Shown: one piece after another, positions 19,095 to 42,122 of the stretch
Numbering within the stretch: the first letter of the stretch is position 1
Layout: every line of letters starts with the position of its first letter
NCBI GenBank assembly: GCA_903918885.1
Contig: CAIXFY010000050.1
Span: forward strand, 1-64,000
Length of the DNA: 64,000 nucleotides
Source: an uncultured Verrucomicrobia subdivision 3 bacterium
Lineage (GTDB): Bacteria; Verrucomicrobiota; Verrucomicrobiia; Limisphaerales; UBA11358
Reading direction: 5' to 3'
The notes under the pieces: generated by a model
Database searches by the model: none
Told to the model about the DNA's origin: nothing
Seen by the model: the letters and a program-made list of their open reading frames with translations, nothing else
Position numbers and translations under genes: made by a program

Positions 19095-19187
19095 TTAATT
19101 TTTGAAAACCACGCGCACCGCAAACGCCACCAGTTCCCCGCTGGTGATGATGATTCGTTGCGCCTTGCGTGTGGTTTTACTTTTCAT
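19095..19187 (-). CDS. Possible 30-residue small ORF before the receiver gene
   Basis: An ATG at 19187 opens a 30-codon frame (product begins MKSKTTRKAQRIIITSGELV) ending 10 bases before the receiver start and just upstream of its GGAGG. The product would be basic and partly hydrophobic. There is no good ribosome-binding site, and the putative promoter box ends only 22 bases upstream, so this could simply be untranslated leader. No family was recognised. Confidence 0.25.
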   Translation of the reverse strand: MKSKTTRKAQRIIITSGELVAFAVRVVFKN

Positions 19188-19209
19188 GAGGCCAATCTAC
19201 CTGAACTAA

Positions 19210-19229
19210 CCTTAAGGAATCGTGAAGCC
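19210..19229 (-). promoter_or_regulatory. Candidate response-regulator box 1
   Basis: Read toward the receiver and Spy-like genes, the sequence is GGCTTCACGATTCCTTAAGG: two half-sites, CTTCAC and CTTAAG, five bases apart, the spacing of OmpR/PmrA-type direct-repeat boxes. Eleven bases after CTTAAG comes TAGATT, a plausible -10. Nearly the same sequence occurs at 36575-36594 and 36629-36646 around the two-component operon. Confidence 0.6.
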
Positions 19230-22232: not shown

Positions 22233-22245
22233 GGGCAAAAGCAAG

Positions 22246-25200
22246 TCACGGGTTGAACAGCGCGCGATAAAAGCGGCGCTGAAAATTGGTTGTCTCGGTG
22301 TCAGACCAGAGCAGCGGCGAGACGGAGAGGTTGGTGGAAAAGACGTTCGTCCAATTGATGAGATTCGTCGAAGCTTGCACAATGTAAGTCTGGCCGGTCG
22401 TGCCGACGATGGAAAATTGCACGCAACCGCCGGTCAGCATCGTGCCCGCCAACACTGGCGGCGGATTGGTCGGTGCGGGAATACTGTAGCTGTAGGCCAC
22501 CATGCGGTTGGTTTTGCCGACGCCCTCGTCCGCCGGACGGTAGGAGCGCACATAATCCACAATGGCATTGGTCGGAGAGATGGTGACGCGCAGATGGCCG
22601 GAGCTGCCGTAGAGGACGCCGTTGGTGTAGTTGTAATTTGGGTCGGTCGCGGAATTGACCGAGTTATACGGGTAGTGACTCGGCTGCGGCACTTCCTGAT
22701 AGATGAAGTCCGGGTTGCCGTTGGTGTTGCCGCTCGCGAAATAATCCTGCTTCACATACAGGTGGTCGTGGCCGTGGAAAAAGACCTGCGCCCGATTGGT
22801 GATAAGCAAATCGCGAATGGGCATGGGCCAGCCGGGGCGGTGTGCGGCAAAACCCGGCGTGCCGTTGGTGTTCAAACCGCCCCACTCGAAGTAAGGTGAA
22901 AATTCCAGTCCGCCGCGTGCGGTCGAGTCAAAGCTGCCGCCGATGAGGTGGTGGGCGAAGATGAATTTGAATTTTGCGGTGCTGGTTTCGAGCGTGGACT
23001 TGAGCCAGAAATATTGATTCGTGCCAAGCGTCCACGCCCATGGGTCTTTGGATTTGCTGACGCCTTGGTTGCTATACCAGAACGGGTCGAGCACGACGAA
23101 CAGCGCATCGCCCCACTCGAAGGCGTAGTAGCCGTCGCGCGGATCTTGCTGGTAGGCATCGGTGTTGGTCGCGCCGGAATAAAATCCGCCAGGAACCGGG
23201 CAGGGATAATACAGTTCGCGCGCGCTGGCGGCCCACACCGGCGGGTTGGTGTGCGGCGAAGTGTTGTCCAGCCACCAGCCCAATTCCGGATCGTGATTGC
23301 CGTCCACAAGAAACAGCGGAACGGAGTGTCCGGAGATGTTGAAGAACTGGTTGCGGACGGCGGCGCACGCGTCGATGATGCCCGGCTGCGTCATCGTGTA
23401 AGGATTGGTGGACGCATATTTTTCGCCCATGAACGTGTCGCCGAGATCGATTAAAAAATCCGGCTGGTCGGCAAGGACATTGGTGAGCGTTTGTTGCCAG
23501 ATGGAAGGAACTGTGCCGGGGTTGTCGTTGTAATGCGGGTCGGCCTCGATGTCGAAAGTGAACGTGCTGCCGCGCGCGCGTTGCGTGGCAAACGTGCGTT
23601 CCGCTCCGGCGCTGAAAGGCGCGCTGCCGTTGGTTGAAAAGCGCAGACGGTAAAAAAATTTCTGGTTGCCCTGAAGCTGGTTGAAGATGAACGCCGTGGG
23701 GACGGTGGCCGCGACGAGATTTGTCGTGGTCTGGTTCGTGTAAATGCCCGATTGCGTGCCGCACTCCAGATAGGCTTGCAGGTCGTTGCTCGCGAGAACG
23801 CTCACGGCGATGGAGCTGGCGGTGGGGCGACCGAGCAACACGTCATACGCGGTGAAGATGTTTGTGTCAGCAACCCCGCTGGCGTTCGTGACAGTGAGAA
23901 CGGCGGGCAGGCTGTTCGTGCTCGTGGGCCAATTGACAGCCTTGTCGGTCACCACCACGTCGTAGGTTGCAGCGTCGGTTGCGGAGATATTGGTCAGGTC
24001 GAGCCGGGTAAGATAAACGCTCGTATCCACCGTCGTGTAGTTTGTGGCCGTGAGAATGTTCGTTCCGTTTTTCCGCCACTGAACGGAGAACTGCTTGGGA
24101 TACACCGTGGTCATCGCCCAGAATGTCACATTGCTGCCCGCCGCCACGGTCTGGCTTTGCGGATGCACGCCGATATAGGGCGGATAGGCTTCCGCCGTGA
24201 TGTTTCCGTAATCCGCCGTCAACGTCGCCACGACGTTCGAGTAGGCAGGCACGTTGATCAGGTCCGTCGTCTCGTAAGGATCGGCGATGATGTCGAACAG
24301 CAAGTTGGTGAAAGCGTTGGCCGAAATCTTGTCGCGGATGAGCTTGAACATCGTGAGGCTCGGGCCGTTGCTGAACACGTCGAACACGCCGCTGCCGCCG
24401 CTGCTGCCGGAAACGAGCGGCACGCCGCGATAGTTCGTGGGATTGAACGCGCCGTTTGTCGCCGTGAGCAGCAACGGCCACATGTTCACGCCGTCGAAGG
24501 GCTTCGGGTTCAGCGGCGTCACGCCCACCGCCGCGCAGATGGTCGGAAACCAGTCGCCCACCCAGACGAATTGCTGGCAGTTCGTCACGCCCGCTGGCAG
24601 CACGCCCGGCCAGCGGATCGCCGCCGGGGTGTGGATGCCGCCGTCATACAAATCGCCCTTCGTGCCACGCAGCGGCGTGTTCAGCGAGCCGACCGCGTTG
24701 TCGCCGCCGTTGTCGCCGAAATAAACCACCAGCGTGTTCGTCGTAATGCCTTCGCTGTCGAGCGCGGCGAGCACGCGACCGAGCGCGACGTCTTCCTGAT
24801 CAATTGCCGCGTCAAGCGTGCGCCGCGTCGTGTCGGCAATGCCCGTGTATTTGCTGATGAAATTGGTCGCCGCGCTCACCGGGCCGTGAACGGCGTTGAA
24901 CGCGAGATACAGAATCACCGGCTTCGACGGGTCGCGCTGTTGCAGCAGTTGCACGGCCTTGTCCGCCAGCAAATCGGAAGACCAGCCCGCGTCCAGATTC
25001 GTCTGGCCGTTCAGCCACCAATCCAACAGGCCGTTGTCCTGACTGATGTGCGTGAAATAATTGATCGCGCCGGTGTATTGTCCGTAGTGGATGTCCCAGC
25101 CGCGATTCTGCGGCTGGTAATCAGTATTTTCGCGGATGACCGGGTAGCTAACGCCGTTAATGACGGTGTTGGAAGCGGTGTTGTAAAGCCCGCCGAGATG

Positions 25201-25848
25201 CCATTTGCCACACATGAACGTCTGATAGCCCGCCGCCTTGAACGTGACCGGCATGAGGTGTTCGTGCAAATCAAGCCCGTGGGAATTGTTGACGCCGGTG
25301 CGGATGGGGTTGCGCCCGGTCATCAACGTCGAACGCGTGACGCTGCAAACCGGCGTGGGATAAAATCGTTCCAGCCGGATGCCTTCGCTGCCGATCCGAT
25401 CCATGTTCGGCGTGGGCATCTCCGCGCCGTGACAGCTCAAATCGTGATAACCCTGATCGTCGGTGACGATGATGAGGACGTTCGGCTTGAGCGAGCGGAC
25501 GAATACCGTGAACGACTGCGTCGCGCTCAAGTTCGGTGAGCCGTTGTCGGTGACGACAACGCTGAAGAAGTTTGACGTGCCGGAATTATTCGTGGTCGTC
25601 AGCCACGCGATTACGCCGGTGTTCGTGTTGATTGTCGCTCCGCCGGGCGCGGTTAGAAGGCTGAAGGTGAGTTGCTGCGCGGGAACGTCCGCGTCGCTCG
25701 CGACGTTGGTGACGGAAAGAGTTTCGCCGCCGTTGAGGACGCGATTGGTCAGCGCCGACAAGGTGGGCGGCGTGTTGGTCGCCTCGGCGCGGAAAATTCC
25801 GGCGCAGAGAACGGCCAGCCAAATCCAGTTGTTAAAAAACTTCGGCAT
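22246..25848 (-). CDS. Secreted sulfatase / purple acid phosphatase-like fusion
   Basis: A 1200-residue exported protein combining two hydrolases. Order: signal peptide (1-23), cadherin/Ig-like domain (about 25-118), type I sulfatase domain (about 121-540, with VTDDQGYHDL, GKWHLGG and VYFGDNGGDN), Ig-like domain (about 555-655), FnIII-like domain (about 665-765), metallophosphoesterase (about 770-1090, with ADPHYND, LGDTFM, DGNHDP, AHHLIG, HGHDHLY), and a C-terminal beta domain ending RRFYRALFNP. The sulfatase active-site motif is C168-S-V-T-R instead of the usual C-x-P/A-x-R, so formylglycine formation is uncertain. It starts 3 bases after the upstream gene's stop. Joint action on sulfated and phosphorylated substrates is inferred only from domain content. 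Confidence 0.88.
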   Translation of the reverse strand: MPKFFNNWIWLAVLCAGIFRAEATNTPPTLSALTNRVLNGGETLSVTNVASDADVPAQQLTFSLLTAPGGATINTNTGVIAWLTTTNNSGTSNFFSVVVTDNGSPNLSATQSFTVFVRSLKPNVLIIVTDDQGYHDLSCHGAEMPTPNMDRIGSEGIRLERFYPTPVCSVTRSTLMTGRNPIRTGVNNSHGLDLHEHLMPVTFKAAGYQTFMCGKWHLGGLYNTASNTVINGVSYPVIRENTDYQPQNRGWDIHYGQYTGAINYFTHISQDNGLLDWWLNGQTNLDAGWSSDLLADKAVQLLQQRDPSKPVILYLAFNAVHGPVSAATNFISKYTGIADTTRRTLDAAIDQEDVALGRVLAALDSEGITTNTLVVYFGDNGGDNAVGSLNTPLRGTKGDLYDGGIHTPAAIRWPGVLPAGVTNCQQFVWVGDWFPTICAAVGVTPLNPKPFDGVNMWPLLLTATNGAFNPTNYRGVPLVSGSSGGSGVFDVFSNGPSLTMFKLIRDKISANAFTNLLFDIIADPYETTDLINVPAYSNVVATLTADYGNITAEAYPPYIGVHPQSQTVAAGSNVTFWAMTTVYPKQFSVQWRKNGTNILTATNYTTVDTSVYLTRLDLTNISATDAATYDVVVTDKAVNWPTSTNSLPAVLTVTNASGVADTNIFTAYDVLLGRPTASSIAVSVLASNDLQAYLECGTQSGIYTNQTTTNLVAATVPTAFIFNQLQGNQKFFYRLRFSTNGSAPFSAGAERTFATQRARGSTFTFDIEADPHYNDNPGTVPSIWQQTLTNVLADQPDFLIDLGDTFMGEKYASTNPYTMTQPGIIDACAAVRNQFFNISGHSVPLFLVDGNHDPELGWWLDNTSPHTNPPVWAASARELYYPCPVPGGFYSGATNTDAYQQDPRDGYYAFEWGDALFVVLDPFWYSNQGVSKSKDPWAWTLGTNQYFWLKSTLETSTAKFKFIFAHHLIGGSFDSTARGGLEFSPYFEWGGLNTNGTPGFAAHRPGWPMPIRDLLITNRAQVFFHGHDHLYVKQDYFASGNTNGNPDFIYQEVPQPSHYPYNSVNSATDPNYNYTNGVLYGSSGHLRVTISPTNAIVDYVRSYRPADEGVGKTNRMVAYSYSIPAPTNPPPVLAGTMLTGGCVQFSIVGTTGQTYIVQASTNLINWTNVFSTNLSVSPLLWSDTETTNFQRRFYRALFNP

Positions 25849-25851
25849 AAA

Positions 25852-28800
25852 TTATCTCGTCGCTTTGACCCGATAGAATAGGTTCGAGCCAGTGTTTCCG
25901 CCGGTGTGGATGACCGTGTTGGTGATCGTGGTCGGCGGCGTGTTGGTAAAGACGGCAGTCCATTGGCCAGAGGCAAGCGAGGACGAGCATTCGAGATATT
26001 GCCACGCGTTGTTGCCGCCGATCCAAGTCAAGTTGATGTTGCCGCCGGCGACTTGCAGGCCGGTGATGGCCAGGCGCGACGCGGCGTTCGTCGGGTTCAG
26101 GTCGGCAATATAATTTTGCAGCGTGGTACTGCCGTTGGCGTTGATGAAGCTCGCGACGGACGCCAGCGTGGGATCGAAGCCGTAGCGCAACGCCCAGCCG
26201 TCGGGGATGCCATTGTTCGCAGACGACCACGCGGTGGGATCGAGGCCGTAGCTGAATTCCTGAAGGTCGGTCAGGCCGTCGCCGTCGTCGTCGCTGGTGG
26301 CGGTGACGGCGGAGAGCGAGCCGAAGTGCGAACGCACCCAAACATCCGGAAGGCCAAGCCCAACCGTGTCGGTAGCCGCGCCGGTGTAAGTTTCAATCGT
26401 TCCGCGCGGCGTCAAATCCTTGCCGGCAAAGCCACTGAAGTTGGTCGCATAGCGGTGAACTTTGAAAACTTCGTTGAGTGTCTGTAACGGAAAGTTGGTG
26501 TTGCTGTTTGGGTCGAACGGGACGGTCGTGCCTTGCGCTAGCGGCGTGGTTGTGATGGGGTTGATATATTTCCAGACAGTTTGCGCGTTGCTGTTGACTT
26601 CAAACAGCGTGCCGCGAATTCCGAAAGTGATGAGCGTGTCGCCGTTCGGTTCGCGTTCCACGCCGCCGATGTCCGCACCAAAGAAATTCGTCGCAGGATT
26701 GTTGGTGTATTGCCAAAAATAACTCGTCGGCCCGAAATAGGTGTTGCCGACACGCGAATAAAAGCCGTTCGCATCCACCGGCGGGACAATTTCGTCAATC
26801 GAAGTGTAAGCCGGATTAGCGCGATTGATTCCGTTGTCGTGAATCAAAATGTGGCCCGCGCCGGGACAGTTAGTCGGAATCCAGGTCGCGCAGTGTTGTT
26901 GCCAGAGCATTTCCTTGTGCGTCGCGTCGGTGAGATTGTTGATGGCCGGATTGCCCCAGCGATACAGTAAATCACCGCCTTTACCGTAACGACCGCCAGT
27001 GTGGCCGGCGGCTTGCGCAGTGGTGGTGCCATGGTCAATCACCCAAATCTCGCACTGGTTGCGTGAGCTGATGAGAATTTGGTCAAGCTGCGGATTGTAA
27101 TCAATGCCATTGAAGTGATTCCAGAACTGCTGGAGCGGACCGCTATTGGCGTTGATCAGTTCAATGTGATTGCTCGGCACGCCGTAGTTGGCCTTGGTCA
27201 CGTCGTTGCTCTGAACGAGGTGATCCCAGACATGCCATTGCCAGACGATTGTGCCGTTGGTCGTGCCATTTTTTGCAGCGGGCTGCACTTCAATAACGGC
27301 GTCGGGCAGCAAGAAACCGCCGTTGGTGGTCACGCTGATTTGCGTTTGTGAATTCGTCTGAAAACCGGCAGCGAGAACATCCGCCAAAGGCTTCTCCTCA
27401 CACATGATCATCAGCAAATTGCCGTTTGGCAAAAGCGCGATGTCGTGATGGCTCAGGTTCGTGATCGTGTTCTGCTCGTAGCACCAGACCAGATTGTTTT
27501 GCCAATCGCGTTCCTCCACTCGACCGCCTTCGCCGCCGCCGGTGTTGAGCAGAGCTTGCCCGCCCAAGGAACAGGTCCGCAACAAGTGGCCGTTCGGCAT
27601 CAAGTATTCCGACCGGCCCGGATTGTAGGTGGTCGTCCACTTGTGGACATATTGGCCGCTGTTGTTGATTAGATAAGTGGTGTTGGCCTGCATCGGCGAG
27701 AACAGCGTGTAACCGGATTGCACGCCGGAAAGATTGGTGAAAAGCCCCACCGTCTGCGAAAGCTTTTCCTGCCGCATCACGCGGAAACCTGTTTGACTCC
27801 AATCGCCGTAAGGATCGCCAGGCGGACCGCCGCCGAGAAAATAAGACGGGTCGCGATTCGACACACGAGCGTGGCCGTAATCGTAGTCGCTCGCGGAATT
27901 GCCGTTCCACCAAGTGCCGCCGCGCAGACAGCGGTAGGGCGCGCCGTTCGTGCTGGTGGGAAACAAATCCGCGTTCGCCAGCACTGGGCCGGGCGGATTC
28001 GTCACGATGTTGTTGTTCGTGCAGTAGGCGTAGTAGGCGTTTTGATACCAGTCGTTGCACCATTCCCAGACGTTGCCGCCCATGTCGTAAAGGCCGTAGG
28101 GATTCGAGCCGTCGCTGGTCTGGTAAGTCGTCTGGCTTGCCGGCCAGTTGTAATCCGACTTGAGCCGTAGCGCGCCGTTGTAGAAACCGACGGGCGTTGT
28201 GCATGGGTAATCGTTCGTCGTCTCGAACGGGTCGCCGGAGTTCTGCCAGTTGGCGAAGCTGCCATCGTAATTCGTGTTCATGCCCCACGGGAACATGACG
28301 TAGGGATTCGTCTGGCCGCCGTGCGCGGCGTATTCCCATTCAGCCTCGGTCGGCAAACGAAAACCGTTCTTCGTGAAATCCACGTCGCCGTTGGTGAGAT
28401 TGTAGCACGAATCGAAACCGTTCGTCTGGCTCAACCAGTTGCAATATGCAATCGCGCCGAACCACCGCACACTCGTAGCCGGATGCAGATCGCGGCTGTT
28501 CAGGACGGTGAAAGAGTTGTTCAGAAACTGGATGCGGCTGGAGGACGACGCATCGCGCGTGTAGAAAAACACATTCGTCCCGCCGACGGCATAAACGATG
28601 TTCGTGCGCACCTCAATCAAACCCTGTGCCAGCGCGCTGTTCAGATAGTCGCAATACTCGCGGCAGGTAACGAGCGTCGTGGACATATAGAGCGGCGAGA
28701 TATAGACGTTGTGAACGGGGATTTCGTCCGTGTAGTGCTTGAGGTCAATGTATTCGAACTGGTCGCCCATGAGAAAATTACCGCCGGGAATGCGGACATA

Positions 28801-29409
28801 TTGTGCGCTGAACGGGATGACGACATTCGACGTGCCGATGGTGGTCGTGAGCGTGATCTGATCGAGCCAGACATGGGCGTTCGCCTGCCCGCCGGCGAAC
28901 TGGAATTGTAGGAACAGATTGCTGACGAGGTCGGCAGGCGGGAGCGCGTAGGTATAGCTGCGCCAGGTGTGATTCGTGCCGTTCGTCTCATTGAGCCGCG
29001 TCGTGAAACCCGCGCCGTTGTTGAGCAGCAGCGCCCAGCCGCCGTTGTTCGTCAGGCCAGTGGTGTTGATGTAAAAAGTCAGCGTCGCGCTGTCACCGCG
29101 CGCATCAATGCCCGCCGCCGTGGTGATGAAACTGTCCGTCAGATTCGTCGTGCCAACCTTAAATGAAAGTCCATTAGTATTGCCACTACCGTAGTTGGCG
29201 TTGGCGTTTTGCTCGAATGGGTTACTGTAACCATTTGTGAAAACCGTCCAGGCATAGTTGCAACCGCCGCCCGCCCATGGTTTGACTGTGTTGGTTGCCA
29301 TTGTTTCTTGAAACCCCACCACATTCGTCGTCGCCGCACAAGCTTGCCGGTCCCCTAACCAGACAAAAACCAGCATGGTCGACAAGATGAGATGGATGGA
29401 ACGTTTCAC
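25852..29409 (-). CDS. Secreted fusion of FGE-like and arylsulfotransferase-like domains
   Basis: An 1185-residue exported protein. The start is GTG at 29409, overlapping the previous stop as GTGA and giving the signal peptide VKRSIHLILSTMLVFVWLGD; the longer open frame upstream is non-homologous. Domains: a beta-rich N-terminal region (about 30-195), a formylglycine-generating-enzyme/SUMF1 fold (about 204-547; GGNFLMGDQ, RLPTEAEWEYAAHGG, DMGGNVWEWCNDWY, RCLRGGTWW), an arylsulfotransferase-like propeller (about 555-985; HHDIALLPNGNLLMI), a TSP3-like calcium segment (DDDGDGLTDLQEF) and a C-terminal beta domain. After RGGTWW the two catalytic cysteines of true FGEs are absent, so the first domain is probably not a sulfatase-activating enzyme. 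The sulfatase gene follows directly. Confidence 0.85.
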   Translation of the reverse strand: MKRSIHLILSTMLVFVWLGDRQACAATTNVVGFQETMATNTVKPWAGGGCNYAWTVFTNGYSNPFEQNANANYGSGNTNGLSFKVGTTNLTDSFITTAAGIDARGDSATLTFYINTTGLTNNGGWALLLNNGAGFTTRLNETNGTNHTWRSYTYALPPADLVSNLFLQFQFAGGQANAHVWLDQITLTTTIGTSNVVIPFSAQYVRIPGGNFLMGDQFEYIDLKHYTDEIPVHNVYISPLYMSTTLVTCREYCDYLNSALAQGLIEVRTNIVYAVGGTNVFFYTRDASSSSRIQFLNNSFTVLNSRDLHPATSVRWFGAIAYCNWLSQTNGFDSCYNLTNGDVDFTKNGFRLPTEAEWEYAAHGGQTNPYVMFPWGMNTNYDGSFANWQNSGDPFETTNDYPCTTPVGFYNGALRLKSDYNWPASQTTYQTSDGSNPYGLYDMGGNVWEWCNDWYQNAYYAYCTNNNIVTNPPGPVLANADLFPTSTNGAPYRCLRGGTWWNGNSASDYDYGHARVSNRDPSYFLGGGPPGDPYGDWSQTGFRVMRQEKLSQTVGLFTNLSGVQSGYTLFSPMQANTTYLINNSGQYVHKWTTTYNPGRSEYLMPNGHLLRTCSLGGQALLNTGGGEGGRVEERDWQNNLVWCYEQNTITNLSHHDIALLPNGNLLMIMCEEKPLADVLAAGFQTNSQTQISVTTNGGFLLPDAVIEVQPAAKNGTTNGTIVWQWHVWDHLVQSNDVTKANYGVPSNHIELINANSGPLQQFWNHFNGIDYNPQLDQILISSRNQCEIWVIDHGTTTAQAAGHTGGRYGKGGDLLYRWGNPAINNLTDATHKEMLWQQHCATWIPTNCPGAGHILIHDNGINRANPAYTSIDEIVPPVDANGFYSRVGNTYFGPTSYFWQYTNNPATNFFGADIGGVEREPNGDTLITFGIRGTLFEVNSNAQTVWKYINPITTTPLAQGTTVPFDPNSNTNFPLQTLNEVFKVHRYATNFSGFAGKDLTPRGTIETYTGAATDTVGLGLPDVWVRSHFGSLSAVTATSDDDGDGLTDLQEFSYGLDPTAWSSANNGIPDGWALRYGFDPTLASVASFINANGSTTLQNYIADLNPTNAASRLAITGLQVAGGNINLTWIGGNNAWQYLECSSSLASGQWTAVFTNTPPTTITNTVIHTGGNTGSNLFYRVKATR

Positions 29410-31073
29410 GGTTGATGAGAATGATTGCCTTCGGGTAGGTTGCCCTTCGGTAAATCCATTTCGCTGGCAATCATCCTCGTTCGGTCGTAAGTGAACTTCA
29501 ACGCGGAGCTGTCGAGCACAAGTTCTTTCATGGCGGTGAGCAAAACATTGCGGCTGACGGCTGACGGCGGCAAGGAAATTTTCACCGGCGCAGACAGCGC
29601 ATAAACAGTGATAAAATATGTTTTCGTGCCCGGCCCTTTCGAGTGCGGCGGCGCGTATCCGAGATTGCGATTGACGCTGTTGTTGCCCGCGACACCGATG
29701 CTGGTGGCATTTTTTGCGAGGCTGTGGACGCTCGCGGGAATGTTGTAGAGCGTCCAATACCACTTCACATCGCCCGGGCCGGGAAAGTGATCCATGATGA
29801 CCGCGAAATATTTTGTGCCCGCCGGCGCACCGCTCCATTCGAGCGGCGGCGAAGCGCTCGCGCCATCGCCGGTGAATTCCACCGGCAACGCGCCGCCATT
29901 TGTCACCACCGAACTTGTCAGTAGAAAAGTGCCGCTGTGCTTAGCGTTAATCATCACCGGAGCTACAGCCGCTGGCTGATCGCGGCGTGGCTGATCGCGT
30001 TGAGCATCCGGCGGAGGACGCTGACCTTTGAGATCATTTTGCGGCGGTGGATTTTTTTCGTGGTCAGGTCGAAAATTTGTCGGATATGTTTTCGTCGTCT
30101 TCTGGCCGGACGCGTCGGTGAAATCAAACCTCACCGCGCCAGCCTCTGCGCCGTAGTGCAACGTTACCGGCTGGCCGTTGAGTGTGTAAGTCAGCGTGTA
30201 GCTTTTCCCATCCGCCTCGGTTTTGAAATCCGTGATGACTGCACCGCGTAACGGCGTCGTGGCCGGCCGCACGGGTTGTGCGCGTGGTTGAGGGTCGACT
30301 TGTCCGTCGCGCTCCGTGACTGTGCCGTGGAAACCGCCGTTGACGTAAGGATATTTTGTCGAGGCGTGATAATGATAGCCCAGCAGCTTCGTGGTGTGGC
30401 CGTCAAAAGCATCCAAATCGTTTGGGCGTGTGCCATCCGGATCGGCCAGTCCGTAAATCGGATAACCATCCAGCGCGAATGCGATAGGGTTGTTCGAGCC
30501 GATATATTGCTGCAAATGCAGCGGCGCGGCGTGATAATGATAATCATCCGCCCGACCCGCGTGGCCGCCAAAGTGGTCGAGTTCGCCGATTTCAGCGGAG
30601 ATTTCGCCGCGATTGTTCTGGGGATTGAAAATGGGAATGCCGTTCACAGCAATGGCAATGGCTCCGCGCAGGAAATTATTTTTGATGCTTTGCGGTTCCG
30701 TGGCTGGAACCGGATTCAGTGGAAACCGCCAGGCATTATCCCCCGTGTAATTTTGCGGCAGCGGCACCTGTTGCTGCCAGGCGGTGATACCCGTCATCAT
30801 CTGATCCGAAACCATTCCATCCGACTCGACATAGAAAAACCTGTTGTCCCAGTGCGTCCGAACATTGTTGGCAAACGGGGCAAACGCCGTGGCGATGGAG
30901 GCACCACGGTTCGTTGTGTCTGGGGTTAAGTGCAGAAGGATATTGGTTGGTGGCGTTATGCTGGGATTGTAATGTGCGGTCAATCCGTCATGCGCAGGGT
31001 TGCCGGTGAGGTGGGCGGTGCATGTGGTAGAGGCAAATATCCCCAAACACAAAACCACTAGGTTTTTTATCAT
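29406..31073 (-). CDS. Secreted YHYH-domain / PEBP-like fusion protein
   Basis: A 555-residue exported protein. The start at 31073 gives signal peptide MIKNLVVLCLGIFASTTCTA; an upstream in-frame Met lies in the spacer. The N-terminal half is a YHYH domain with two His-rich motifs, DYHYHAAP (about 177-184) and GYHYHAS (about 232-238), and FALDGYPIYG between them. A Pro/Arg/Gln-rich linker (about 345-385) leads to a phosphatidylethanolamine-binding-protein domain of the YbhB/YbcL type (about 390-540; SPPLEWSGAPAGTKYFAVIM and DHFPGPGDVKWYWTLYNIP). The YHYH family has no established function; clustered His and Tyr suggest metal binding. The stop overlaps the next start by 4 bases. Confidence 0.82.
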   Translation of the reverse strand: MIKNLVVLCLGIFASTTCTAHLTGNPAHDGLTAHYNPSITPPTNILLHLTPDTTNRGASIATAFAPFANNVRTHWDNRFFYVESDGMVSDQMMTGITAWQQQVPLPQNYTGDNAWRFPLNPVPATEPQSIKNNFLRGAIAIAVNGIPIFNPQNNRGEISAEIGELDHFGGHAGRADDYHYHAAPLHLQQYIGSNNPIAFALDGYPIYGLADPDGTRPNDLDAFDGHTTKLLGYHYHASTKYPYVNGGFHGTVTERDGQVDPQPRAQPVRPATTPLRGAVITDFKTEADGKSYTLTYTLNGQPVTLHYGAEAGAVRFDFTDASGQKTTKTYPTNFRPDHEKNPPPQNDLKGQRPPPDAQRDQPRRDQPAAVAPVMINAKHSGTFLLTSSVVTNGGALPVEFTGDGASASPPLEWSGAPAGTKYFAVIMDHFPGPGDVKWYWTLYNIPASVHSLAKNATSIGVAGNNSVNRNLGYAPPHSKGPGTKTYFITVYALSAPVKISLPPSAVSRNVLLTAMKELVLDSSALKFTYDRTRMIASEMDLPKGNLPEGNHSHQP

Positions 31074-31116
31074 AAAAAAAGCATGGTAACTTTGAACATT
31101 CCAATGGATAAAAAAT

Positions 31117-32919
31117 CTACGGCGCATTATTTTTAAACTGCGCATCGGTCAAAGTATTCAAGAACGCCACCAGCGCCCGCTTGTCCGCCGCGCTCAACGG
31201 CACGCCGCCGTCGGGATGCTTGGCGAGATTCGGGTCGAGCGTCGCACTGCGTTTCAAACCAGTTGCGTAATGTTCAACGACTGCTTCCAGCGTTTGGAAA
31301 CGGCCGTCGTGCATATATGGAGCGGTCAGCGCCACATTGCGTAGCGACGGCGTGGCGAATTTTCCATCATCTGATTTCTTGCCGGTAATTTTGCCGCGAC
31401 CCAAATCGGCGAAAGTATCATCCAGTCCGTTGTTGGCGAAACTCTGGCTTTGGAACAATGGGCCGCCGTGGCAATGAAAACAGTCCGCGCCGAATTGTCC
31501 GCGACGCGGATCGTATTCGGTGGAGAACAGTTCAAACCCGCGCTGTTCCTCCGGCGTGAATTTCCCCTCGCCGCGCAGCACGCGGTCGAACTTGGCGTCG
31601 AAAGAGGTGAGCGTGAGTAGATAATTTTCCAGTGCGAGTGAAATCTTTTCCGCCGTGATCTCCGGCGAGCCGAAGGCAGTTGTGAAGAGTGCGGGGTAAT
31701 CATTGGTGGGGCGCGTCACTCCGTGCGCGCCGTCGGCGGGCAGGGGACTGCCCGCCCTACCTGTTGTCAGTTTCACAACCAAATTCGTCAGCGCCTCGTG
31801 CATCTCAATCGGATTTTGAATCGGCTGCAATACCTGTTCGCGCAGACTTTTCGCGCGGCCATCCCAGAAAAATTCCTTCTTCCACGCGAGATTGAATAGC
31901 GGCATGGAATTGCGTTCGCCGAATTTTCCCTCCGCGCCGCGCGCCGTTTTGCGTCCGTCGGTAAAGGCTTTGGCCGGCGCGTGACAGTCGGCGCAGGATT
32001 GCTGGTCGTTGATGGACAGGCGTGGGTCGAGGAATAGTTTTTTGCCCAGCTCCACGCGTTCGACGAGCAGCGGGTTGTCGCGCGGCAAGTCGGGAATCGG
32101 AAAGGTCGCGCTCATCTGAAATTCATACGGTGTAAATTTCGTTGGCAAGAAAAGTGGTTTTGGATGGGCAACAGCGATTTCCGTTTCGCTTAACTGTGTG
32201 ATGCGGTGAACGCGGAACGCGCCCGCCAGATTTCTCACCAACGCGGCGGAAATCGGGTCGCCGTCGCGCGAGTGTGTGGACGAACCGTCCTTGCCAAACG
32301 ACAGCGGACGCGGCGCGTTCAGCAAGGTTGCCAAATCAAAATCCAGTTCCAGCTTGGTTTCATTTGTGATTTGTAGCGATGCGGCCAGCGTGACGCAAAC
32401 GGCGTTGGTATCGCGCGCCAGATGATACGCCCAGCCGTCGAGTTCGCCGGTGGCGTTGCGCCACAAACCTTCGAGCGCGAGAAAAATAAATCCGCCCTGC
32501 CAGCTCCAATGCAATCCGTTCAGATTCGGGTTCAGTGGATGCGCGGCGGGAAACTTGGCTACATCCGCGTGGTTCAAATTGGTGTTCAGGCCGACGAGAA
32601 AACGGAGCGAGCGATATTCGCCGGCCGGAATTTCCAGCCGCTTGGAGTCGCGATTCTGCTCGTAATCAAACCACGCGACGGAATTGGAAAGTTCCAGCCA
32701 CGAACCGTCGTTGCGTTGCAAAGCGAAATCGCTGGCAAGCCAGCTCACGCGCGTCACGGAAAAGGTTTCGCCCGCCGAAGTCTGATAGCGCAGCGACGCG
32801 GGCTGAAGATTTTCGCCGGAAACTTTCGGCGTGATTTGAAGTTGCAGCGTGGCGGCGGAAGCCGGATTGACCGCGCACAAGCCGGTGAGCCATAAAATAA
32901 TTTTCCGCGCCAGCTTCAT
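31117..32919 (-). CDS. MbnP-like copper protein fused to MbnH-like diheme cytochrome c peroxidase
   Basis: A 600-residue exported protein, start at 32919 overlapping the previous stop (ATGA), signal peptide MKLARKIILWLTGLCAVNPA. Residues about 23-240 match the MbnP family (VSWLASDFALQRNDGSWLEL; LNGLHWSWQGGFIFLALEG). Residues about 270-600 are a diheme peroxidase of the MauG/MbnH type with two heme-c sites, CADCH (309-313) and CFHCH (480-484), and the PYMHDGRF segment. In methanobactin clusters these are separate partners, the diheme enzyme oxidising a Trp of MbnP to create a copper site; here both are one chain. Residues about 388-405 look like an in-frame repeat insertion. Confidence 0.85.
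   Translation of the reverse strand: MKLARKIILWLTGLCAVNPASAATLQLQITPKVSGENLQPASLRYQTSAGETFSVTRVSWLASDFALQRNDGSWLELSNSVAWFDYEQNRDSKRLEIPAGEYRSLRFLVGLNTNLNHADVAKFPAAHPLNPNLNGLHWSWQGGFIFLALEGLWRNATGELDGWAYHLARDTNAVCVTLAASLQITNETKLELDFDLATLLNAPRPLSFGKDGSSTHSRDGDPISAALVRNLAGAFRVHRITQLSETEIAVAHPKPLFLPTKFTPYEFQMSATFPIPDLPRDNPLLVERVELGKKLFLDPRLSINDQQSCADCHAPAKAFTDGRKTARGAEGKFGERNSMPLFNLAWKKEFFWDGRAKSLREQVLQPIQNPIEMHEALTNLVVKLTTGRAGSPLPADGAHGVTRPTNDYPALFTTAFGSPEITAEKISLALENYLLTLTSFDAKFDRVLRGEGKFTPEEQRGFELFSTEYDPRRGQFGADCFHCHGGPLFQSQSFANNGLDDTFADLGRGKITGKKSDDGKFATPSLRNVALTAPYMHDGRFQTLEAVVEHYATGLKRSATLDPNLAKHPDGGVPLSAADKRALVAFLNTLTDAQFKNNAP
31735..31756. repeat. Palindromic repeat inside the MbnP-MbnH fusion gene
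   Basis: GGCGGGCAG and CTGCCCGCC form a perfect 9-bp stem with a GGGA loop. On the coding strand it sits in a stretch encoding RAGSPLPADGAHGVTRPT, low-complexity residues between two conserved peroxidase blocks (residues about 388-405). The reading frame is kept. Confidence 0.7.
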
Positions 32920-34199
32920 CTGGAATCGTAGCCGCCATTGCCGGCATTCCAAGAGATTGTCGTTGTTTTGGCGGTGGCGGTTTTGAGGTTGGTAACGGGA
33001 TGCGCCAGAAAATTGGTCGTCACCGGTTCGTGAACGCCAGTGACGAGACAGCCAATCGGATAGCCATGAAAGCGCCGGCCCATGTTGTAAGGATAAACGG
33101 GTTGGCCGTTGACATCAATCGTGGTGAAGTAAGCATAAGTTCCCTGCGGAAATTCCGGCGTGACGCACCAGCGGCCGTTGAGCTCATCGAGGTCGAAATC
33201 TTTGCCCAAAGTTTTCCCGCAGTCGCCGACATACGCGTAGTCCTCGATGTAATGACCGAGCGGATATTTTTCGCTGACATTTGGCCCGGTTTGAAAATCT
33301 GGCAGCACGGCGGAACGATTTTGTTCGCGCGCTTCCCAAGTGGGTAAAGTGCGGCGACCGGTTTGTGCGAGATTGTCGGTGCCGTTCTCGCCGTTGCGCA
33401 AAGCGAAACCAGAAATCATTCGGCGCACGCCGCTGGCAGGATTGGTGGGGTTGGAAAAACCATAAGGCCCGTAAACCGGATAGCCGTCCTGCATCCAGCC
33501 GAGAATCGGCGAATGCTTGGTCGGCGCGCTGGAACTTTCGCGGTAAGTTTTTGTCGCGGAATCAAAATCCACATGGTCGCCGAGTTCGTAGCGCAGCGCG
33601 ATAGGTTCGACATGATAGTGATAAGTGCCGCGATTTTGCTGGTGCGCGAGCGCGGCGTCGAAAGTCCGACCCTCGTTCACCAGCGCGTCGCGGTTCCAAA
33701 CGCGGTCACCTTGGCCGATGCCGGCGCGCGGGCTGGCGTCCTGATGCTTTTGGTGCGAGTAGGAAAACGCATCACCAGCGTCGAACATCCGCACGCCATC
33801 CACGAACATTCCAATTTCGCCAAGGCGGTTGAAATTTTGCGTCGGCTGAACTTTCGGATGGCGCGGCAGCGCAAAAATAAAATGCTGATCCGTCGGCAGG
33901 TTAGGAAAAAATCCGTTCTGCCACGGCCCCATGATTTGGCTGCCGAGGCCGGTGCTGAAAACATAAATCCAGTTGGACGACGACATGATTTTTTGCACGC
34001 CGCAATACGCTGGCTGCGATTGCGTGTTGCGGCCGTTGCTCCAAGTCGTTTCGGTCTGGCCGGAATTTTTCTCCGCGACGGTGCGGTAGATTTGCGCGAA
34101 CCTGCCGGAGTCGAGCGTGAACCACGAAGTGATTTGCGGGTCAGCAAAAGCTTTTGTGCTCAGCACACAGAAAATTGCGGCGGAAAAAATAAATTTCAT
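32916..34199 (-). CDS. Secreted YHYH-family protein
   Basis: A 427-residue exported protein with signal peptide MKFIFSAAIFCVLSTKAFA; the start at 34199 is chosen over a 132-codon upstream extension that only mirrors the previous gene in another frame. It carries TYHYHVEP (YHYH at about 193-196), the preceding GPW and FVDGVRMFDAGDAFSY blocks, then HSPILGWMQDGYPVYGPYG and a Tyr/Cys-containing C-terminal half (CVTPEFPQGTYAYF). It aligns along its length with the central part of the upstream gene product, so the two are tandem paralogues. Function unknown; the His/Tyr cluster suggests metal or redox chemistry. The stop overlaps the next gene by 4 bases. Confidence 0.82.
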   Translation of the reverse strand: MKFIFSAAIFCVLSTKAFADPQITSWFTLDSGRFAQIYRTVAEKNSGQTETTWSNGRNTQSQPAYCGVQKIMSSSNWIYVFSTGLGSQIMGPWQNGFFPNLPTDQHFIFALPRHPKVQPTQNFNRLGEIGMFVDGVRMFDAGDAFSYSHQKHQDASPRAGIGQGDRVWNRDALVNEGRTFDAALAHQQNRGTYHYHVEPIALRYELGDHVDFDSATKTYRESSSAPTKHSPILGWMQDGYPVYGPYGFSNPTNPASGVRRMISGFALRNGENGTDNLAQTGRRTLPTWEAREQNRSAVLPDFQTGPNVSEKYPLGHYIEDYAYVGDCGKTLGKDFDLDELNGRWCVTPEFPQGTYAYFTTIDVNGQPVYPYNMGRRFHGYPIGCLVTGVHEPVTTNFLAHPVTNLKTATAKTTTISWNAGNGGYDSR

Positions 34200-34212: not shown

Positions 34213-36546
34213 TTAATTGATGGTGAAATAACTCGTGAGCGTGTAAGGCGGTGGGCCGGAGTTGAAAGTGACGACAATCGTTTGTGCGCCGGTGGGCGTG
34301 TAGCCGGACGGAATCGTGAACAGCGCCACCACCGAGCCTTGCACCGTGTAGCTCGTGCTGATGGCGGTAATGCTGCCCACGGTGACGCTCGTGATGGGCG
34401 CACCGGCAGGCGGGGCGTTGGGCGGATAACTGCCGCCGGTTGGCAGCGTGATGGTGAGCAGCACGGATTGACCGCGATAGGCTGCGCCGCCGGGAGCGAC
34501 GGCGTTGGTGGCAAACAGCGTGGTGCCCGCGCTGTCGTAACTCGCCACGGATGTGCGTCCGGCGCGGTAAAATCGTTTGTCGAGCGCGCTGACATCGTCG
34601 AGATAAGTGCTGCCGGGGCCGTTCGTGGCGTAGGTGTTGATGGTGAGACCGCCGGCCAAAGAAGTCCACGAGGTCAAGTTCGTAGAGCCTTCGATTTGAT
34701 AACTGCCGCCGTCCACGCCCGTCCATTTGAGCGAGACAAGGCCACCGTTGATGTAAGTAGGCGTGTTCATCTTGCTTACGAGATTTGTGCCGCCAAGAAA
34801 ATTGGTGATCGCGTTTTCGGTGACGGAAATGGCGCTCACTGTGCCGCCGCTCGGCGTGCCGTAGTAGCCACGTCCGATGTTGTAGGGAAATGTCGGCGTG
34901 CCGTTGCTGCTGATGCTGACAAAGTAGGCGTAAGTGCCGTTGGGAAATTCCGGCGTGACGCAGTAGCGCCCGTTGTATTCGTCGAGGTCGTAGGTGTTCG
35001 TGCCGGGCGCGATGCCATGATCACCGAGATAATCGTTATCCTCCATGTAGCGGCCGAGAACATAAATGCCAGCGACATTCGGGCCGACTTGATTGGAGAC
35101 GACATTGAACAAGCGCGCCGACCACGCGGGAATGGTTTTGCGTCCGTTCGCCGTGAGATTGCTCGTGCCGAAAGTTCCGTTCCGCAAAATGTAGCCGGAA
35201 ATCATCCGTCGGATGCCGCTGCTGGCGTTGTTGGAAACGCCGTAACCGTAAGGTCCGTAAACCGGATAGCCGTCCGCCGTCCACGCGAGAATCGGCGAGT
35301 GCTTGGTCGGCGTGTTGGTGGACTCGGTATAAATTTTTGTCACGGAATTAAAATCCACATGGTCGCCGAGCTGGTAGCGCAGCGCGGGCGGATTAGCGTG
35401 ATAATGATATTGTCCGCCCGCCTGATGCGCGTTGTTCGGGTCGAAGCTCGCGCCTTCGTTCACATACGCGTCGCGGTTCCAATAGCCGGTGATGTTCTGC
35501 GCGTCCACATTGGAAACCGTGCTGTAAGAATACGCGTCCCAACTGTTGAACATCGCCGCGCCGTCCACGAAATATCCAATTGGCCCACCGCCGCTCGCGG
35601 TTTTTGTCGTCGGCACGGACGGGCTGCGCGGAATGCGATACATAGTTTTCTGGTTCACCGGCCAGTTCGGAAACGGCTGCGTGTGCTGCGCATTTAGATA
35701 CCACGGCCCCATCACAAAACTGCCCAGCCCCGTGCTGCGGATGTAAACCCAGTTGCTGGAGGAATATATTTCCTGCACGCCGCAATATGCGGGCAGCGAC
35801 TGGATGGTCGTCCCGTTCGTCCACGCTGTCATGGAAACTCCGTTTGTGCGCGACAAATCATTGGTGTAGATGCGCGCGTATTGGCCGGCGTAGGTGGTGA
35901 ACCACGAGTTTGTGCGCGGGTCGGCGGGTAAATTGGTCGCCGTGGTCGTGAACGATGCGTTCAGCACGATGTTCTGGCTGGGCGCGGGCACATCGGTCAA
36001 TTGGAAACTGGAAGTGCTCGTGTTCGTCAATTGCGCGGAATAATTCGCGCCGTTCAGCGAAGCGGTGGTCGCGTCCAGCGCCTGAATTATTTCCGTGCTC
36101 GTTGAATACGGAATGTTTTTCGAGGCGGTCGCGGACGAATTCCAGTTCAAGTTGCCGCCGCCATCCACCGGCCGCACGCCCAATCCGGCGATGCCAAACC
36201 GGACCGAACTCGTCGTCACGCCGCTGGACACGGACACCAACGATGCGGTCAAAGTCACGCCGTATCCATAAACAATCAGATTGCCATTCACGCTGACGCG
36301 CGTGTCGCCATCAAGGATGGAAAATGTCGCCGCCGCGCCGCCGGCATACGGCGACATCGTGACCGCGATGACGACATTCTGGCCGGACGCCGAATCGGTG
36401 AAGGTGTAGTTCTTCGTGAGATTCGTCGCGAGCGAGACGATGGAATCGTAATTGGTGACGCTCGCGGCCTTGGTGTTTTGCGCCAGCGCGGAAAATGCCA
36501 GCACGGTCAGGATCAGAATTTTTTTGAATCGGGTGTTGGTTTTCAT
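34213..36546 (-). CDS. Secreted multidomain YHYH-family protein, first gene of the string
   Basis: A 777-residue exported protein: signal peptide MKTNTRFKKILILTVLAFSA, a Ser/Thr/Asn-rich beta domain (about 30-205), the YHYH domain (about 210-600, motif QYHYHANP with YHYH at about 380-383, then HSPILAWTADGYPVYGPYG and CVTPEFPNGTYAYF), and a C-terminal beta region (about 610-777) resembling Ig/FnIII modules. The YHYH part is a close paralogue of the next gene. It is first in an eight-gene string, 13 bases before the second gene; a candidate regulator box lies about 30 bases upstream. Function unknown. Confidence 0.82.
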   Translation of the reverse strand: MKTNTRFKKILILTVLAFSALAQNTKAASVTNYDSIVSLATNLTKNYTFTDSASGQNVVIAVTMSPYAGGAAATFSILDGDTRVSVNGNLIVYGYGVTLTASLVSVSSGVTTSSVRFGIAGLGVRPVDGGGNLNWNSSATASKNIPYSTSTEIIQALDATTASLNGANYSAQLTNTSTSSFQLTDVPAPSQNIVLNASFTTTATNLPADPRTNSWFTTYAGQYARIYTNDLSRTNGVSMTAWTNGTTIQSLPAYCGVQEIYSSSNWVYIRSTGLGSFVMGPWYLNAQHTQPFPNWPVNQKTMYRIPRSPSVPTTKTASGGGPIGYFVDGAAMFNSWDAYSYSTVSNVDAQNITGYWNRDAYVNEGASFDPNNAHQAGGQYHYHANPPALRYQLGDHVDFNSVTKIYTESTNTPTKHSPILAWTADGYPVYGPYGYGVSNNASSGIRRMISGYILRNGTFGTSNLTANGRKTIPAWSARLFNVVSNQVGPNVAGIYVLGRYMEDNDYLGDHGIAPGTNTYDLDEYNGRYCVTPEFPNGTYAYFVSISSNGTPTFPYNIGRGYYGTPSGGTVSAISVTENAITNFLGGTNLVSKMNTPTYINGGLVSLKWTGVDGGSYQIEGSTNLTSWTSLAGGLTINTYATNGPGSTYLDDVSALDKRFYRAGRTSVASYDSAGTTLFATNAVAPGGAAYRGQSVLLTITLPTGGSYPPNAPPAGAPITSVTVGSITAISTSYTVQGSVVALFTIPSGYTPTGAQTIVVTFNSGPPPYTLTSYFTIN

Positions 36547-36574
36547 AATCGTGCCGTGACTCTAAACAAAGTCA

Positions 36575-36594
36575 CCTTAAGCGAACATGAAGCC
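36575..36594 (-). promoter_or_regulatory. Candidate response-regulator box 2, upstream of the eight-gene string
   Basis: Read toward the YHYH gene at 36546, it is GGCTTCATGTTCGCTTAAGG, agreeing with box 1 at 15 of 20 positions and with both half-sites conserved (CTTCAT and CTTAAG, five bases apart). As in box 1, eleven bases after CTTAAG comes a -10-like TAGAGT. Confidence 0.65.
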
Positions 36595-36628
36595 AGCCAA
36601 AAATTGCACACCGGTGGGCAATTTTTAT

Positions 36629-36646
36629 CTTCATCTCCCCTTAAGG
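36629..36646 (+). promoter_or_regulatory. Candidate response-regulator box 3, upstream of the two-component operon
   Basis: CTTCATCTCCCCTTAAGG on the plus strand: the same CTTCAT-N5-CTTAAGG arrangement, here pointing at the response regulator gene that starts at 36715. Its position in the divergent spacer fits autoregulation. Confidence 0.6.
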
Positions 36647-36714
36647 TCAACATTGCGAAGATTCCGATGCTGGCGGATTCAGATAGTCCATGCTAAAACT
36701 TCGCCAGCCCGAAC

Positions 36715-37365
36715 ATGAGAATTCTCATCGTCGAAGACGAACCCGATTTGCTCGCGAGCCTCGCGCAGGCGTTGCGCGAGGAAGGCTACGCCGTGGACAC
36801 CGCCGACAACGGCGACGACGGCCTCTTCAACGCCGAAGGCACGGACTACGACGCGATTGTTTTGGATGTCATGTTGCCCGGCATGGATGGCTGGGAGGTT
36901 TTGAAGCGCCTTCGCAAAACCAAAAAAACTCCAGTCCTCATGCTCACCGCGCGCGATCAGACGCGCGACCGCGTGAAAGGCCTCGACACCGGCGCGGATG
37001 ATTACGTCGTCAAGCCGTTTGACCTCGATGAAGTGTTCGCCCGCCTCCGCGCCATCATCCGCCGCAGCGCGAACAAGACCACCAACATAATTGAAATCGG
37101 CGATGTCAAAGTTGATGCCGCCGCGCGCATCGTTTCGCTCAAGAACAAACCGGTCGAACTCACGGCGCGCGAGTATTCGCTGGTGGAATTCATGGCGCTG
37201 CATCGCGGCGAAGTGGTTACACGCACGCAGCTTTACGAGCATCTGTTCGACGAGAACGAAGATTCGTTTTCCAACCTGCTCGATGTGCATGTTTCCAACG
37301 TCCGCAAAAAACTCGGCGCGGAATTCATTGCCACCCGGCGCGGCCATGGCTATTGCATCGAATGA
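36715..37365 (+). CDS. OmpR-family response regulator
   Basis: A 216-residue DNA-binding response regulator. The receiver has the acidic cluster in VEDEPD, phospho-acceptor Asp51 in IVLDVMLPGMDGWEVLK, LTARDQ with the conserved Thr, and KPFDLDE with the Lys. The C-terminal winged helix (about 125-216) has PVELTAREYSLVEFMALHRG and VSNVRKKLGAEFIATRRGHG, the OmpR/PhoB signature, most like the metal- and polymyxin-responsive CusR/PmrA type. It overlaps the kinase gene by 4 bases (ATGA). The direct-repeat boxes nearby have the layout this class binds, so it is the probable regulator of the divergent eight-gene string. Confidence 0.93.
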   Translation: MRILIVEDEPDLLASLAQALREEGYAVDTADNGDDGLFNAEGTDYDAIVLDVMLPGMDGWEVLKRLRKTKKTPVLMLTARDQTRDRVKGLDTGADDYVVKPFDLDEVFARLRAIIRRSANKTTNIIEIGDVKVDAAARIVSLKNKPVELTAREYSLVEFMALHRGEVVTRTQLYEHLFDENEDSFSNLLDVHVSNVRKKLGAEFIATRRGHGYCIE

Positions 37366-38888
37366 AGATTTTCAAATCCATCAAGTGGCGTTTGCAACTC
37401 TGGTATGGCCTGATTCTTGTCGTTGTGCTGGCGGGGTTTGGTTTCACGGCCTATCAACTTCAGCGCAACCGGCAGTTTCGCCAGGTTGACGACGGGATTC
37501 ACCAGCGCATCGGCATTCTCGCGAACAATCTGCACCGCCCGCCGCTGCGTCCGGGCAATGGCGACGGCAGCGGTGTTAATCAGTTTGGTAACCGCCAACC
37601 GCCGGAAGACCAGTTTCCGCAGGATCAGTTTTCCAATGACCGTCCGCCGCAATTCCAGCGTCGTTCGCAGGTGTTCCATCTCGCGCCAGAGAACGCCCGG
37701 CTGTTTGACACAAATGACATCAATGGTTTCTTTTTCCGCATCAGTCGGCTTGTGGAAAACGACCGCACCATCATCGCGCAATCGGAAAACTATCGGCAAC
37801 CGCAGCCGGTTTTGGAATACGACCATTACTTTGATCAATTGAACCACTTCGATTTTCCGGACAGAAAAAAACTGGTTTCGCCGAAAACCATTGCTGCGGG
37901 TGATGACCAGATTGTCATTGAAACATTGCCATCGGGCGAAGCGATTGAAGTCGGCTGCTCACTCAAGCCCATGCGCGCGGAACTCCGCAACGCCGCGTTG
38001 CACCTCGCGGGCGTGGGCGGACTAATTTTACTTGTGGGCTTGTTCGGCGGCTGGTGGTTTGTCGGTCGCGCGCTCCGGCCGATTTCGGAAATCAGCGCTA
38101 CGGCGGTGAAAATTTCCGCCGGCGATTTGTCGCAACGGATTTCCGCCGCCGAAACTGAAAGCGAACTCGGCCAGCTTGCGGCGGTTTTGAATTCCACCTT
38201 CGCGCGCTTGGAAACCGCATTCGCCCAGCAGAAACAATTCGCGTCCGATGCGGCGCACGAACTCCGCACGCCAGTCACGGTGATTCTCACGCAGACGCAG
38301 ACCGCGTTGAACCGCGAGCGCGACGCCGCCAGCTACAAGCAGACCGTTGAAGCTTGTCAGCGCGCGGCGCAGCGGATGCGTAAACTCATCGAATCGCTGC
38401 TTGCGCTGGCCCGGTTTGACGCTGGGCAGGAAGTCTTGCGCCGGACAGATTTTGATTTTTCTGAAACCATTGCCGACTGCGCGGAGCTGGTGCAACCGCT
38501 CGCGGACGAGCGCGCGGTGAAAATTTCCGTTGCTGTCGAACCCGTTAAAATCACGGGCGATGCCGAACGCCTTGCCCAAGTCGTCACCAATTTGCTCACC
38601 AACGCGATTCAATACAACCAGCCCGCCGGCGAAGTGCGCGTGCAACTGGCATCGCAAAATGGTCTGGCCGTGCTGACCGTGACGGATACGGGGCAGGGGA
38701 TTGCCCCCGCCGATTTGCCGTTGGTGTTCGGCAGATTTTATCGCGCCGACCAGTCGCGCACGGGTGCCAGCAATGCCGGTCTTGGCCTTGCCATTACCAA
38801 AGCCATCGTCGAGGCGCACGGCGGGACGATTGAAGTGGCGAGCGAAGAAAATGCCGGGACAACTTTTACCGTGCGGCTGCCCATTTGA
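37362..38888 (+). CDS. Sensor histidine kinase, heavy-metal-sensor-like layout
   Basis: A 508-residue inner-membrane kinase. The start is the ATG overlapping the regulator stop; three upstream codons in frame are ignored. Layout: membrane helix (about 11-31), a periplasmic domain of about 180 residues rich in Pro, Gln, Asn and Arg early on and His/Tyr/Asp later (EYDHYFDQLNHFDFPD), second helix (about 212-235), HAMP, dimerisation domain with the phosphorylated His in SDAAHELRTPVTVI, and an ATPase domain with NLLTNAIQYN (N box), DTGQGIAP (G1), FGRFYR (F box) and GLGLAI (G2). The ligand is unknown; the CusS-like architecture and metal-type targets make a metal ion plausible. Confidence 0.92.
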   Translation: MKIFKSIKWRLQLWYGLILVVVLAGFGFTAYQLQRNRQFRQVDDGIHQRIGILANNLHRPPLRPGNGDGSGVNQFGNRQPPEDQFPQDQFSNDRPPQFQRRSQVFHLAPENARLFDTNDINGFFFRISRLVENDRTIIAQSENYRQPQPVLEYDHYFDQLNHFDFPDRKKLVSPKTIAAGDDQIVIETLPSGEAIEVGCSLKPMRAELRNAALHLAGVGGLILLVGLFGGWWFVGRALRPISEISATAVKISAGDLSQRISAAETESELGQLAAVLNSTFARLETAFAQQKQFASDAAHELRTPVTVILTQTQTALNRERDAASYKQTVEACQRAAQRMRKLIESLLALARFDAGQEVLRRTDFDFSETIADCAELVQPLADERAVKISVAVEPVKITGDAERLAQVVTNLLTNAIQYNQPAGEVRVQLASQNGLAVLTVTDTGQGIAPADLPLVFGRFYRADQSRTGASNAGLGLAITKAIVEAHGGTIEVASEENAGTTFTVRLPI

Positions 38889-42054: not shown

Positions 42055-42122
42055 TAAACGGACGCCGGAACGAAATTCCGACAAGAAAGTTGGGAAAAAT
42101 GTATTCGGCTTTTACAAGTGTG

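Follow-up and report, generated by a model that had tools for sequence, protein, structure and literature searches.

What does the two-component system encoded at this locus control, and through which DNA site? The DNA analysed (hereafter, the window) is a stretch of 64,000 nucleotides, positions 1 to 64,000 of contig CAIXFY010000050.1, from an uncultured Verrucomicrobia subdivision 3 bacterium of the order Limisphaerales. It encodes a response regulator, starting at position 36715, next to a sensor kinase, and a divergent string of eight genes, followed at its other end by a receiver/Spy-like gene pair. The original prediction, made from the sequence of the window, was that a box, CTTCAY-N5-CTTAAGG, is present at three promoters, and that through it the regulator controls its own gene, the string and the pair. 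Features are listed in Table 1.

Table 1. Positions in the window of the genes, boxes and promoter elements discussed in the text
Feature	Position	Strand	Remarks
Small exported Spy/CpxP-like protein	18230..18625	-	weak Spy match, E 8e-6, below cut-off
Single-domain receiver protein	18671..19084	-	PF00072
30-codon ORF MKSKTTRKAQRIIITSGELVAFAVRVVFKN	19095..19187	-	ATG 6 nt after Box 1 -10; predicted leaderless
-10 TAGATT	19194..19199	-	11 nt after CTTAAG of Box 1; 6 nt before ATG
Box 1, CTTCAC-N5-CTTAAGG	19210..19227	-	5' of receiver/Spy-like genes
Operon gene 8, purple-acid-phosphatase-like protein	19283..20695	-	weak match
Operon gene 7, metallophosphatase	20688..22382	-	start uncertain
Operon gene 6, sulfatase + Ig + metallophosphatase	22246..25848	-	
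Operon gene 5, FGE-sulfatase + arylsulfotransferase-like domains	25852..29838	-	true start probably later
Operon gene 4, YHYH + phosphatidylethanolamine-binding-protein domain	29406..31145	-	
Operon gene 3, MbnP domain fused to MbnH/MauG-like di-heme enzyme	31117..32952	-	Pfam PF20243, PF03150
Operon gene 2, YHYH protein	32916..34199	-	start 34199 by alignment
Operon gene 1, exported YHYH protein	34213..36546	-	PF14240
-10 TAGAGT	36559..36564	-	11 nt after CTTAAG of Box 2
Box 2, CTTCAT-N5-CTTAAGG	36575..36592	-	5' of divergent eight-gene string
Inverted repeat AAAAATTGC-N10-GCAATTTTT	36599..36626		between divergent Boxes 2 and 3
Box 3, CTTCAT-N5-CTTAAGG	36629..36646	+	5' of regulator gene; predicted autoregulation
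Extended -10 TGC-GAAGAT	36654..36662	+	regulator promoter; 11 nt after CTTAAG of Box 3
OmpR/PhoB-type response regulator, PmrA-like recognition helix	36715..37365	+	PF00072 and PF00486 over cut-off
Membrane sensor histidine kinase (HAMP, HisKA, HATPase_c)	37353..38888	+	closest to TIGR01386

The box in the window and in the assembly

The three boxes were found where they had been reported, all of them intergenic and all oriented towards the downstream gene. Boxes 2 and 3 stand back to back in the gap separating the eight-gene string from the regulator gene, and Box 1 is placed between the 3' end of the string and the receiver/Spy-like pair. These are the only 3 exact matches in the window, for an expectation of 0.00 obtained with 100 dinucleotide shuffles, and also the only ones in the whole assembly (2,456,281 bases, ~2.46 Mb). 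The reversed pattern gave 0 matches in the 2.46-Mb assembly, and allowing one mismatch to the box added 0 sites. With two mismatches, 29 sites were obtained in total, versus 103 for the reversed control; in view of this deficit, such weak matches were rejected as noise. With an assembly that is 91% complete, a fourth site may have gone unseen. The scan is in effect a comparison of coding with upstream DNA, and its outcome agrees with the original prediction.

The inverted repeat lying between Boxes 2 and 3 is a possible second operator. Palindromes resembling TTGCRCA-N4-TGYGCAA are present at the same place in the close relatives L101, L252 and L100, and lost elsewhere.

Position of the -10 element and promoter classes

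The TAGAKT-like -10 elements reported 11 nt past the CTTAAG of two boxes were both recovered at this distance (Table 1). Box 3 is likewise followed by a -10-like hexamer, GAAGAT (36657-36662), with TGC directly before it, which the original prediction had not noticed. To judge the register, 79 distinct exact boxes from relatives were used, which had been collected with a search pattern that did not include the A/T pair of the -10. A at -10 position 2 together with T at position 6 occurred in 72 of the 79 in this register, and in only 0 to 8 of them in the other registers tested. The dinucleotide GT came directly after the box at 73 of these 79 sites. No consensus sigma-70 promoter was present at the box sites, which had no good -35 hexamer, as expected for activator-dependent promoters.

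One hundred distinct sites combining box and -10 were then divided into 33 regulator-gene promoters and 67 target promoters. A TG preceded the -10 in 30/33 of the former versus 10/67 of the latter, and T was found at -10 position 1 in 1/33 versus 60/67. This points to two promoter classes, a new feature, one belonging to the regulator's own gene and the other to its presumed targets, so that basal activity could differ between them.

Conservation of box and regulator across the order

Most of the genomes sampled from the genus contain an ortholog of the regulator (79-95% identity), and orthologs were also found across many families of the order (56-81% identity). An exact box was located at most 220 bp upstream of 33 of the 56 orthologs examined, and several others of the 56 had CTTAAT-N5-CTTAAG or CTTAAT-N5-CTTAAT upstream instead. 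Most same-genus relatives have kept the back-to-back box pair, and there the divergent gene usually encodes a YHYH protein and is followed by a gene for an MbnP-MbnH fusion. Across relatives, box and -10 are conserved and the spacers variable, and the box stays with the regulator gene in further families of the order, where the neighbours differ. A scan of named genomes returned 3 true orthologs (one bacterial, one Verrucomicrobia and one Limisphaerales MAG), and beyond these, unrelated OmpR-type regulators of at most 49% identity. The Limisphaerales and Verrucomicrobia labels of these orthologs are the basis of the taxonomic placement.

A strict pattern made of box and -10 had 62 matches, distributed over 28 of 146 genomes of the order, and its reversed control had 0 in the same 146. 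An ortholog of the regulator was detected in 48 of the 146 genomes and in 25 of the 28 bearing the pattern (Fisher p 6e-12, relatedness being ignored although members of the genus are non-independent sequences). In G030, one of the three pattern-bearing genomes without a detected ortholog, a contig breaks off after the first codons of the regulator, which accounts for this case. The other two, G029 and G047, have perfect box and -10 promoters, yet no close regulator ortholog was found in them, which may be due to an assembly gap or to a diverged regulator of the same specificity. The strict pattern was missing in 23 of the 48 ortholog-bearing genomes, which means either that site and regulator diverged in distant families or that the pattern is too narrow.

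It could be argued that a motif so short, and picked from one window, became three copies by drift or duplication, or is an inherited similarity, and has no function. We find this scarcely credible: it is refuted by the order-wide data, in which the box recurs across families with zero control matches and is kept together with the -10 while spacers vary, as well as by the shuffle expectation and the uniqueness of the three sites in the genome.

The regulator, its kinase and the predicted recognition of the box

The regulator is made of a receiver and a winged-helix Trans_reg_C domain, which places it in the OmpR/PhoB family. The kinase gene adjoins it, in the same order in relatives. All scores against specific models were below cut-off: 283.5 bits for the kinase with the heavy-metal sensor model TIGR01386 (cut-off 292.55), and, for the regulator, 229.2 bits with the heavy-metal model TIGR01387 (cut-off 279.2) and 214.5 bits with the PmrA equivalog NF007928 (cut-off 330). 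The regulator is not assigned as PmrA, CusR or CopR. In the sensor region of the kinase, which is poorly conserved, no clear conserved metal ligands were seen; the structure model of the kinase is moderate (69.8), parts of the outer domain being of low confidence.

The box itself repeats a six-base half-site in direct orientation at a spacing of five bases, as do the boxes of PmrA/BasR, with half-sites CTTAAT/CCTAAG in Klebsiella and CTTAAG/NTTAAT in Salmonella (PMC3973317). Compared to this CTTAAK/T type, the second half-site CTTAAG and the spacing fit, whereas the first is CTTCAY in the window and mostly so elsewhere; it is CTTAAT in several orthologs, upstream of which CTTAAT-N5-CTTAAG itself is found. 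On the protein side, N188 and N196 of PmrA read major-groove bases, R210 reaches into the minor groove, and hydrophobic contacts come from T187, V192 and H195 (PMC4660055). The base-contact residues N188, V192, N196 and R210 are kept in the window regulator, as is H193, while T187 and H195 are both replaced by S. Five OmpR/PhoB-type regulators are encoded in the genome, and H193 and N196 are missing from the other four. With PmrA-type recognition residues on one side and the PmrA-box layout on the other, the box would be the expected target of the window regulator. Differences from PmrA/BasR are the NF007928 score, far below cut-off, the other phylum, and the lack of LPS-modification genes in the predicted regulon. 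A PmrA-type box with matching recognition residues would recur in a distant phylum, with a different regulon.

Another DNA-binding protein that co-occurs with the box might own it instead, be it a second OmpR-type regulator or the sigma-factor-like protein encoded nearby, at 40654-42084, which is also a neighbour in L092. We hold this to be very improbable. The layout, with half-sites one turn apart and 11 nt to the -10, fits an OmpR/PhoB activator, not a -35/-10 sigma pair; the half-sites resemble those of PmrA boxes, and among the five regulators of the genome the PmrA base-contact set is present only in the one encoded at 36715; finally, it is the gene of this regulator that the box follows into families with different neighbours.

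Control of its own gene, of the eight-gene string and of the receiver/Spy-like pair by this regulator is the best-supported reading, given the rarity of the box, its conservation in relatives upstream of the orthologs as well as of the divergent operon and receiver/Spy/EF-hand genes, its co-occurrence with the regulator, and the PmrA-like recognition helix. We consider it very probable that the box is the operator of this regulator and takes the place of the -35 element to activate the three promoters, a metal or envelope signal being the likeliest input. A phosphorylated regulator dimer would bind the half-sites CTT[C/A]AY and CTTAAG head-to-tail, one helical turn apart, and recruit RNA polymerase to the -10 situated 11 nt downstream, at the promoters of the regulator and kinase genes, of the divergent string and of the receiver/Spy-like pair. 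At the regulator's own promoter a poor -10 would be rescued by the extended TG; target promoters have TANNNT, and transcription from them would usually start at or beside the start codon. In activation of the PhoB/PhoP class, the operator replaces the -35 and is located one turn upstream of the -10. The operator here is likewise one turn upstream of the -10; a difference is that the targets here seem mostly to start at the start codon.

Binding to the same box could also repress, or do both, for instance by turning off copper-uptake genes at plentiful copper. The box lies over the -35 region, and a protein sitting there could obstruct the polymerase; in methanotrophs, moreover, copper lowers the CorA/MopE-type genes, a pair somewhat like MbnP/MbnH (PMC3621798, PMC3912023). 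Nevertheless, the missing -35 hexamer and the strict, constant -10 spacing argue for activation, and the extended -10 of the regulator promoter could supply basal activity. Repression thus appears unlikely.

For this uncultured order, the analysis provides, under the activation model, a concrete predicted regulator-operator pair with a readable promoter code. An open-access literature search found nothing on such a Verrucomicrobia regulon.

Content of the predicted regulon and probable nature of the signal

Short gaps between the eight genes of the string, and terminators that are not in excess, suggest a single transcript. In gene 3, both Pfam domains scored over cut-off (104.5 bits for PF20243 and 174.7 bits for PF03150), while the NCBIfam models stayed below it (39.4 of 140 bits for TIGR04052, 216.4 of 362.85 for TIGR04039); its best PDB match was 6e1c, a di-heme enzyme. 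MbnP and MbnH are usually two neighbouring proteins. In gene 3 and in several relatives they are joined as one. Among the domain matches of the string, no lipid A modification genes (arn/pbgP, eptA) were present, and in its sulfatase-fold protein Ig and phosphatase domains are present, but no EptA N-terminal domain. An AlphaFold2 model of a YHYH protein, computed with 12 relatives, had a mean pLDDT of 30 and was unusable.

In relatives, the box is also upstream of the divergent operon and of receiver, Spy and EF-hand genes. Elsewhere, the first genes after it encode YHYH proteins, receivers, Spy/LTXXQ proteins, small exported EF-hand proteins, CotH kinases and a multicopper oxidase. A protein with an EF-hand loop is encoded at most 900 bp from 22 of the 67 target sites. 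Small exported EF-hand box targets recur across the order (L110, L111, L117, L125, L129, L130, L225, L246, L255 and others). The divergent operon opens with sulfatase-maturation-like genes in the relatives G016 and G003. In L099 and L104, it opens with FGE/arylsulfotransferase-like genes, not with YHYH and MbnP-MbnH, and the regulator is kept, which means that the regulon has been rewired there.

Judging from their sequences, what the targets have in common is export, and several would bind copper or calcium. MbnP/MbnH and the somewhat similar MopE/CorA are linked to copper in methanotrophs, where the CorA/CorB genes respond to this metal (PMC3621798, PMC3912023). Gene 3 resembles the MbnP-MbnH and MopE/CorA systems with their di-heme partners in having both domains, and differs from them in that these are fused, have YHYH proteins as neighbours and are placed under a two-component box. 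From the box it can be predicted which exported proteins of unknown function, YHYH and others, share their regulation with a copper-type MbnP-MbnH protein, which makes their role testable.

A heavy-metal-sensor-type kinase, together with exported targets linked to copper or calcium, suggests that the signal is a metal ion or a linked envelope stress. From the family of the kinase and the content of the targets, our best guess is a metal ion, copper first, or envelope stress linked to it. TIGR01387 and TIGR01386, the best NCBIfam models for the two partners, bring the system close to CusRS/CopRS/CzcRS. It differs from these in that both partners are below the curated cut-offs, the targets are not efflux pumps, and the box is a PmrA-type direct repeat. 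We regard the system as a putative new PmrA/CusR-like two-component regulon, of a kind that is already known. A bolder reading would make it an undescribed, order-wide Limisphaerales regulon for copper or divalent metals, a CusR/PmrA hybrid in which rigid leaderless modules, with box, -10 and ATG at fixed spacing, would drive exported kynurenine-copper (fused MbnP-MbnH), multicopper-oxidase, YHYH, EF-hand and CotH proteins. We hold this only tentatively and think it rather doubtful. The literature search returned no paper linking YHYH, CotH, multicopper oxidase and MbnP.

Probable leaderless promoters and a small ORF

In 38 of the 67 target sites, an ATG starts at exactly 6 nt downstream of the -10, a distance at which transcription normally starts. 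Most target promoters therefore appear to be leaderless, which is a new feature. When 335 genomes of the class were scanned for box, -10 and ATG at fixed distance, matches were obtained solely within the order. An apparent second peak of TANNNT, located 21 nt ahead of start codons, was rejected, as it corresponds to the box itself (TAAGGT inside CTTAAGGT).

The same gap is found at other genes without a box, notably at one conserved gene. In about a dozen relatives (L092, L094, L099, L101, L103, L104, L109, L111, L117 and others), TANNNT stands exactly 6 nt ahead of the ATG of this gene, which is HemW-like by sequence and starts ...SLYVHVPFCAQK. As the gap also exists at box-less genes, leaderless starts are probably general in this lineage.

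Downstream of Box 1, the stop codon of the 30-codon ORF is immediately 5' of GGAGG and of the receiver ATG. This ORF may be a leader peptide or serve in translational coupling. Similar small ORFs, of 28-36 codons and with an MKS-E/K start, are found at the same place 5' of the receiver gene in L095, L110 and L131.
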